Assembly: GCA_036397555.1 (NCBI GenBank)
Contig: DASWIS010000008.1
Location: forward strand, 1 to 64,000
Direction: 5' to 3'
Length of the DNA: 64,000 nt
DNA from: Candidatus Zixiibacteriota bacterium
GTDB lineage: Bacteria > Zixibacteria > MSB-5A5 > WJJR01
Made by a program: the position numbers and the translations under genes
In this document: piece by piece, positions 28,881 through 51,476 of the stretch
Layout: every line of letters starts with the position of its first letter
How positions within the stretch are numbered: the stretch's first letter is position 1
Notes under the pieces: model-generated
What the model was told of the DNA's origin: nothing
What the model saw: the letters and a program-made list of their open reading frames with translations, nothing else
Databases searched by the model: none

Positions 28881-29795
28881 TCATCGGAGTTGCAGAAGAT
28901 GCTCCACGCGGCCGACGAGGGAGTCGGAGTCGAGCAACTGCCCTACATGCATTGCTGCGCCCAATTGGTGCATCCAATAGTCGGGTGTCGATACGGAGTC
29001 TCTCCACGTCCTGCCGGGACCATAGACCAGATAGATGTCCCACGCCATTTCCAGCCCGAGAGACTCGCCCCAAGCGGTTCCCAGGAGTCGCTGAGAGTCC
29101 CAGTAGTGCGTCAGACGCTCATCGGTGGATTCCACAGAAGCCTCGACCGCCCGCTCGCGGACGTCGCCGGGCAGCATCGGCAACCAAATGATGTGCGCCC
29201 TGAGCCGGGCATCTCCGACCGTTTCCAGCACTTCTCTGACCGCGGCGTACCCGCGCCGCCTGCAGGCGGGTCAGGTTGGAGATAGGAGACTCACGAGCCG
29301 CACAAATTGTGAGTCGGCATCAAACGCGTGTGTAAAATCGCTCACAGTCTCGATGTCGGCCAGTTCCGCACCCAGCGTATCGAGCGGTGCCCTCGACGTA
29401 TCAGCCAAAGGTTCGTCGACTGATCCCACTGTCCCTCGGATCAGTGCAATCTTGTCTGAATCGTCAAAGAGGAGTGCGAAGAACAATTCTCCCAGTGCGA
29501 ATCTCAGCGTGACTTGCACTTCCCCGGGAATGGAATCGCGTACATCCACCGCTTGCTGGAATGCCCCGAAGAAGTTGATCCAGTCTGTTCGAGTCTGCAT
29601 CAGCTCGTCGGGCGAGAAATCCGACAACACGCTGTCCGCGAACACGTCCCGCAAATGCGTCGTGTCGCCCGTGCGCATGAAATCCGCCACGACTTCAATC
29701 GCACTGACCCGTGCAGGGGAGACTTCCGCCGATGCATTTCCGCCCCAGAGTGCGGCGAGCGCCGCCAGGAGTGCGACGATGATAGTCCTTCTCAT
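28881..29795 (-). CDS. Candidate selenoprotein: exported thioredoxin-like protein with in-frame TGA in a UPAC motif
   Basis: ATG at 29795 has GGAGG at 29800-29804. The first 174 codons encode a signal peptide (to about A23, NASA-EV), then a helical DUF3887-like domain and a strand DSQFVRLVSLLSPT. A TGA at 29271-29273 follows, after which the same frame continues PACRRRGYAAVREVLETVGD, then RLRAHIIWLPMLPGD, LTHYWDSQRLLG, AWDIYLVYGPG and DYWMHQLG, ending at 28881. Reading TGA as selenocysteine gives T-U175-P-A-C178, a redox motif exactly where a thioredoxin-like fold has its C-x-x-C, and a 304-residue protein. A perfect six-pair hairpin lies 11 bases after the TGA. Alternatives are a true stop, with a truncated protein plus a remnant, or a sequence error. 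The C-terminal part alone lacks a ribosome site, and the domain is cut through its active site if TGA is a stop. No sel genes are in the window. Confidence 0.6.
29242..29259 (-). promoter_or_regulatory. SECIS-like stem-loop just downstream of the in-frame TGA
   Basis: On the minus strand GCGGCG, loop CGGGTA, CGCCGC: six perfect pairs with a six-base loop whose second base is G and which contains GGT. The loop begins 18 bases after the TGA, i.e. 17 bases intervene. Bacterial SECIS elements lie within the coding sequence at roughly this distance and usually carry a G in the first two loop positions. An alternative pairing with the upstream CCGCC is possible. Confidence 0.45.
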
Positions 29796-29965
29796 GTTTC
29801 CTCCGTCATTCCTGTTCCTCGGGTTTGCTGTCCCACCGCTTGCCGAAAGTCCCCCATTGAGGGCGGTGGGAAAGGATTTACCTCAATGCGGACGACTGAA
29901 TTTGCCACATCGGGGAACATGGATCAATCGGGGCATCCCGTCATCAAACCGACGGACCTGAGAAT

Positions 29966-30159
29966 CCCGGACCAAGGGGCGTGTTGAAAAATCCCAATTT
30001 GATGTCACCCCGAGCGGAGCGAGGGGTCTCGATGCGCGAGTGTCCGCCGACAACGCCTTGGAGATTCCTCGCTTCGCTCGGAATGACCCGAATGATTACT
30101 TCCATGAAACTCGATTATGTGGGTTCCAATGGGTTTTTCAACACGCCCCTTGGTCCGGG
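29966..30159. mobile_element. 194-bp MITE-like element, copy 1, with perfect 26-bp terminal inverted repeats
   Basis: Bases 29966-29991 and 30134-30159 are perfect reverse complements over 26 positions (outer end CCCGGACCAAGG, inner end GTGTTGAAAAA). The core at 30003-30087 carries two opposed blocks, CCCCGAGCGGAGCGAGGGG and ATTCCTCGCTTCGCTCGGAAT. There is no transposase. Copy 2 lies at 51284-51476 in opposite orientation. It fills most of the gene-free stretch 29796-30291; the rest of that stretch shows nothing clear apart from CCCGGACGAACGTCCGGG at about 30246-30263. Confidence 0.75.
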
Positions 30160-30291
30160 TTTCAACGGATTATCCAATCTGAAGACTCTCAGAATCTCTC
30201 TTGTAGCGCAATCACAAGGGCTCGAAGGCTCAGAGGATCTCGTGAAACCCGGACGAACGTCCGGGCCACCCGCCGTGGAGCCGGTACTCAA

Positions 30292-51283: not shown

Positions 51284-51476
51284 CCCGGACCTTGGGGCAT
51301 GTTGAAAAGCCCTCACGTGACATTGGCACGTTTTTCGTGAACATTATCAACCGATCGTCATTCCGAGCGAAGCGAGGAATCTCCAACGAGTTGTCGGCAG
51401 CCACGCGCATCGAGACCCCTCGCTTCGCTCGGGGTGACATTGAAGTCGGTTTTTCCAACAGTTTCCTTGGTCCGGG
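51284..51476. mobile_element. 193-bp MITE-like element, copy 2, inverted relative to copy 1
   Basis: Ends CCCGGACCTTGGGG-CATGTTGAAAA and TTTTCCAACAGTTTCCTTGG-TCCGGG are decayed versions of the perfect ends of copy 1 (29966-30159). The core at 51358-51438 carries ATTCCGAGCGAAGCGAGGAAT, then CGCGCATCGAGACCCC and CGCTTCGCTCGGGG, which is the reverse complement of the copy 1 core with few changes. Its length differs from copy 1 by one base. It lies in the gap between the sugar dehydrogenase and hydrolase genes. Confidence 0.72.

Follow-up and report, generated by a model that had tools for sequence, protein, structure and literature searches.

In a 64,000-nucleotide stretch of DNA from a Candidatus Zixiibacteriota bacterium (the whole of which is called the window below), two open reading frames lie in the same phase and are separated by exactly one TGA, which raises the question whether this triplet ends a protein or is read as selenocysteine (Sec). 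The two frames had been pointed out in an earlier note made from the sequence alone; their coordinates and common phase are confirmed here, and the strand, which was not stated at that time, is the minus strand. Read through the TGA, the gene (28881..29795, minus) encodes a selenoprotein of 304 residues, as judged from translation and sequence as well as from the full-length alignment of homologues. Its ATG start (29795-29793) has a GGAGG Shine-Dalgarno site upstream, which is seen directly in the sequence (29800..29804, minus), its terminal stop is the TGA at 28883-28881, and the sole internal TGA is located at 29273-29271. With the standard code, this internal TGA splits the gene into two ORFs of 174 and 116 amino acids. 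In the continuous protein, it constitutes codon 175 (U175; 29271..29273, minus) in the redox motif context LLSPT-U-PAC-RRRGY, and Cys178 (29262..29264, minus) is the putative resolving cysteine of the resulting U-x-x-C motif. The complete C-terminal domain holds the segments VRLVSLLSPT-U-PACRRRGYAAVREVLE...IIWLPMLPGD...DERLTHYWD...AWDIYLVYGP...WMHQLG.

The genome of the host carries the full set of selenium genes for which a search had been suggested, selA, selB, selC and selD. A tRNA-Sec (ARAGORN: tRNA-SeC, anticodon tca) is encoded at 783689-783783 of contig C8, the same contig on which the gene resides, followed by selA (C8:784039-785121, E=1.8e-113) and selB (from C8:785216, 306 bits, above the cut-off), so that selC, selA and selB lie adjacent and in this order within C8:783689-786355. 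The selD gene is found at C8:180002-180931 (E=9.4e-98) and carries an in-frame TGA of its own, which serves as an internal positive control. Moreover, within the window's phylum, each of the nine genomes with the TGA form, the window genome counted, has a SelB that scores above the cut-off.

Homologues show which residues occupy the position of the TGA. At this column, 26 relatives carry TGA, two Cys and one Ser. Nine of the TGA proteins derive from eight genomes of the same phylum (G023, G030, G028, G048, G078 with two copies, G079, G113 and G112). The other 17 originate from outside the phylum, namely from G132 (locus L008), G342, G243 and G431 as well as from 13 of the 16 genomes of the phylum to which G282 belongs; seven of these 13 members were read through, and the other six are assigned from a single TGA counted within the match. 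Sequence identity of the relatives to the window Sec domain amounts to about 27-44%. The two Cys members are G342:C80 and G426, with TGC and TGT codons, respectively, and every aligned member with TGA or Cys retains Cys178, which is replaced by Ser only where U is Ser as well. This Ser/Ser protein stems from G004, a member of the window's own family, in whose genome SelB and tRNA-Sec both score under the cut-off, yet a selD with TGA is present; perhaps Sec loss is in progress here, or the assembly has a gap. Apart from the one Ser exception, the relatives thus carry TGA or Cys at the position that the earlier note had taken for the first Cys of a C-P-A-C active site. The triplet is no chance occurrence, as a single in-frame TGA is retained in this column by relatives independent of each other. 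Since about 25 other genomes share this TGA, a sequencing error as its source is ruled out.

In a tree, both Cys proteins form one fully supported clade inside a group whose remaining rows are mostly Sec; the root was placed by midpoint only, and the direction of the Sec/Cys change is thus not given by this tree. Among the sampled members, the family is mostly of the Sec type, a proportion in which Cys forms may be under-counted due to limited genome sampling. Protein searches with two different members gave no match in plasmid records, no relative was found in viral contigs, and a phylum-wide search around the first relative from outside the phylum returned only itself. Besides, a short glutaredoxin-like frame with the motif SSPT-TGA-SSC was observed in G243 (L046, 2514-2798, minus), where it precedes the gene of the family member by about 0.7 kb, and it is possibly another selenoprotein.

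A SECIS-like hairpin behind the TGA, likewise suspected in the earlier note, is real. It consists of a 6-bp stem enclosing the loop CGGGTA (GCGGCG-CGGGTA-CGCCGC; 29242..29259, minus, loop at 29248-29253), the loop starting 17 nt past the UGA, and has a free energy of -10.6 kcal/mol. The published bacterial SECIS model (PMC13188914) comprises an upper stem of 4-16 bp and a loop of 3-9 nt with a G at the first or the second place, at a distance of 16-37 nt from the UGA and with a minimum free energy of -7.5 or lower; the window hairpin agrees with this model on each of these points. Compared with synonymous recoding of the same codons, however, the window hairpin alone is borderline (P=0.05), and strong hairpins also follow terminal TGAs, that of the gene itself (-11.9 kcal/mol) and that of another ORF (-14.8 kcal/mol). 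Hairpin strength alone is therefore not specific in this GC-rich DNA, and the case for a SECIS rests on the family, not on the window hairpin. Across 14 TGA members, the hairpin is stronger than predicted from synonymous recoding, with a combined P (Fisher) of about 2e-7, a value that treats the members as independent and is in truth weaker due to shared ancestry; the underlying position-specific test was devised once a broader test of folding energy, covering the 39-51 nt that follow the TGA, had given a weak result. No hairpin excess over synonymous recoding is seen in the two Cys members (P=0.46 and 1.0) or in the Ser member (P=0.84). Furthermore, seven relatives share one common stem register that is 100% paired, including two pairs changed on both sides, compared with 47-76% pairing in slid control registers. 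The register of the window stem differs slightly from that of these relatives and adjoins a one-codon insertion. Taken as a family, the data strongly support a SECIS downstream of the TGA.

Two other readings of the TGA have to be weighed against Sec. The triplet could be a true stop, leaving either two genes or a pseudogene, with the 116-residue downstream ORF decaying or being translated independently. Gene callers would indeed annotate two ORFs, and a GTG at 29231 is available as start for the second one; the residues between the TGA and this GTG (PxCRRG..) are conserved, however, and the same TGA recurs across phyla. Also, dN/dS downstream of the TGA is only 0.06-0.26 in nine pairs of close relatives, which is not expected of an untranslated stretch and thus argues that the region past the TGA is translated as protein. 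A true stop is accordingly regarded as very improbable. Even less credence is given to the decoding of UGA as Trp, Cys or Gly instead of Sec, either by a code change or by an unusual tRNA. The two relatives with Cys at the TGA column would fit this idea, but TGA is the ordinary stop in 11 of the 36 long ORFs of the window, which speaks against a change of the code, the genome contains a canonical selC-selA-selB cluster, and the hairpin goes together with the TGA form. Both the coding of Sec at U175 and the continuity of the window gene as one protein across the TGA are therefore strongly supported, and with them the selenoprotein interpretation at the core of the earlier note.

As to the architecture of the protein, a signal peptide (MRRTIIVALLAALAALWGGNASA, residues 1-23; 29727..29795, minus) is predicted by eye from its positive N-terminal end, hydrophobic core and the A-S-A before the cleavage position. 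N-termini of the relatives display signal peptides or lipoboxes, the latter in G113 and in the second copy of G078 (G078b); the G243 protein lacks an obvious signal. From these sequence features we infer that the window protein is exported. Residues 36-117 (29445..29690, minus) resemble DUF3887 (PF13026), as had been noticed before. This resemblance is weak in the window protein itself (15.4 bits, E=0.029, versus a curated cut-off of 31.8 bits) and clearer in four relatives (25.9-28.7 bits; E=2.5e-6, 1.6e-5, 2.2e-6 and 3.8e-6), one of which, from G048, holds two DUF3887-like copies (E=2.2e-6). All of these scores stay under the curated cut-off, and the N-terminal part is thus described as DUF3887-like and not filed as a member.

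The Sec domain proper (residues 150-304; 28884..29348, minus) was delimited by alignments and has no Pfam or NCBIfam match above the cut-off in any member. Weak Pfam signals are obtained for Thioredoxin_4 and Redoxin (E=0.02-0.25), and the best PDB match in a profile search is thioredoxin 2l5o (E=0.046). The same structure leads the Foldseek results (E=5.7e-4), followed by DsbE, ResA and SCO1, the query being a low-confidence model (pLDDT 52). In this model, the order strand-UxxC-helix-strand corresponds to the thioredoxin pattern, with the motif starting helix 1. Its input, a shallow alignment, comprised the window protein and L008 only; a full-length model reached a pLDDT of 47, too weak for use. 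Together, the weak profile and fold matches suggest that the C-terminal domain is thioredoxin-like.

On this basis, a mode of action can be proposed. SelB and tRNA-Sec would decode the UGA at 29273-29271 as selenocysteine, helped by the hairpin just downstream, and the mature protein would be located outside the cytoplasm. There, the DUF3887-like domain would come in front, succeeded by a thioredoxin-fold domain with U-P-A-C at the start of its first helix. The selenolate of U175 would attack a disulfide or another electrophile, and Cys178 would resolve the selenenylsulfide thus formed. Judging from motif and fold, the protein is most likely an exported selenol/thiol oxidoreductase. That the gene encodes an exported selenoprotein in which UGA is decoded by SelB and the hairpin, and which joins a DUF3887-like domain to a thioredoxin-fold U-P-A-C domain performing thiol/disulfide chemistry, is considered highly probable.

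The surroundings of the gene point to a more specific role for some members. In G028, G048, G078 and G079, genes on the same strand are arranged in the order MerR regulator, MerT/HMA fusion, small thioredoxin-like protein and TGA gene; Pfam was run on the neighbors in G048 and G079, and those in G028 and G078 were read by eye. The small neighbor in G048 is a Thioredoxin_3 protein according to Pfam, and in G079 the TGA gene starts before its preceding neighbor has ended. A single polypeptide of G431 (L050, 1498-2961, minus), a genome from another phylum, even unites MerT and HMA with the Sec thioredoxin-like domain. Location in a mer cluster or fusion to MerT was thus found for G028, G048, the first copy of G078 (G078a), G079 and G431. 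Beside the window copy, mer genes were not seen, nor beside the copies in G023, G030, G113, G078b, the G282-type genomes and G132. The window copy stands by itself, next to a sigma factor gene and with a UDP-glucose-dehydrogenase-like gene farther upstream (names assigned by eye). At L067, L078 and L079 (G048, G028 and G078, respectively), an unannotated outer-membrane-like protein is encoded that separates the selenoprotein from the mer-type genes; none intervenes in G079, and the G048 copy gave no Pfam match. Just upstream of the window gene, at 29962-30163, two 33-nt inverted repeat arms lie 136 nt apart and are 94% complementary. The outer part of this repeat reads CCAAGGGGCGTGTTGAAAAA, a related end with two mismatches occurs at 51294, and the repeat has the appearance of a small MITE-type element.

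Given the very tight binding of Hg(II) by selenols, a mercury role is plausible for the mer-linked branch, and members whose genes lie within merR-merT/HMA clusters probably take part in the handling of mercury. One may go further and regard the whole family as mercury or heavy-metal proteins whose selenol binds or passes on Hg(II), instead of general thiol oxidoreductases, a view compatible with Sec coding. The gene order that recurs in four genomes belonging to one family, the single-chain MerT-HMA-SecTrx fusion in a distant genome and the affinity of selenols all speak for it, but the copies listed above beside which no mer genes were seen speak against it, and the mer-linked copies fall in only two lineages. 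The link to mercury is hence real for part of the family and unproven for its other members, and its extension to all of them appears doubtful. Another view likewise compatible with Sec coding is that the proteins belong to a catalogued but loosely defined UxxC family, e.g., 'Trx-like 3' or 'Prx-like 3'/'Redoxin family protein' of the GOS set. Trx-like 3 and Prx-like 3 were defined by UxxC and weak domain matches (pfam08534 or cd02950, E>0.001), and a weak Redoxin match (E=0.02-0.2) is also present here. Since no NCBIfam selenoprotein model exceeds its cut-off for the Sec domain of any member and a literature text search did not find the conserved motif, such a membership is held to be rather unlikely.

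Among known systems, the exported thioredoxins TlpA, ResA and DsbE have the thioredoxin topology, the redox motif starting helix 1 and the export that are predicted for the present family, with 2l5o, 3gl3 and ResA as best fold and profile matches. Sequence identity to ResA, DsbE and 2l5o is only 7-15%, however, and the present family differs in Sec replacing the first Cys, in extra N-terminal domains and in a distinct conserved tail (W..ML..D, DxRxxxxWD, WDxYxLYG, W, WMHQ). The Rcas_1661 family thioredoxin-like (seleno)lipoprotein NF041057 (DsbG-like) is also an exported UxxC thioredoxin-like selenoprotein and represents the only NCBIfam selenoprotein model with a signal to the Sec domain (E=1.1e-4 for Cys member L049 and 0.053 for one member of alignment A2), but the score reaches 21.9 bits versus a cut-off of 190, and the window protein gives no signal. 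MerT/CopZ fusion-like heavy metal transport selenoprotein NF045683 and MerTP fusion NF033556 have MerT and heavy-metal-associated domains in common with L050, which scores 58 bits (cut-off 375) and 90 bits (cut-off 180), respectively; both models match only its MerT/HMA part and not the Sec domain. Many UxxC thioredoxin-fold selenoproteins of unknown function are contained in the 119-family catalogue (PMC13188914) and among the deep-Sep families (PMC12013277). In the entries covered from these sources, of 2026 and 2025, respectively, a DUF3887-thioredoxin fusion is absent, and the literature text search retrieved neither the motif nor any text naming DUF3887 together with thioredoxin. The impression that the architecture is undescribed therefore holds as far as tested. 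The family is apparently uncatalogued and without a domain model, and displays new domain combinations, its separation from GOS Trx-like 3/Prx-like 3 being based on descriptions only. The missing domain model would be explained by gene callers cutting the gene at the UGA.

A selenoprotein family is, as a kind, already known, and no new principle is involved. As a tentative proposal, the exported thioredoxin-like proteins may make up an uncatalogued, mostly Sec-containing family. One of its branches would have been co-opted for mercury uptake by MerT/HMA, through fusion in one lineage, and its selenol would capture Hg(II) or hand it over in the extracytoplasmic space. The finding enlarges the bacterial selenoproteome by a well-supported family from lineages apparently known mainly from metagenomes, and the repeated tie of this family to mercury-transport genes leads to a proposal that can be tested, namely that selenocysteine serves some bacteria in extracytoplasmic metal handling.
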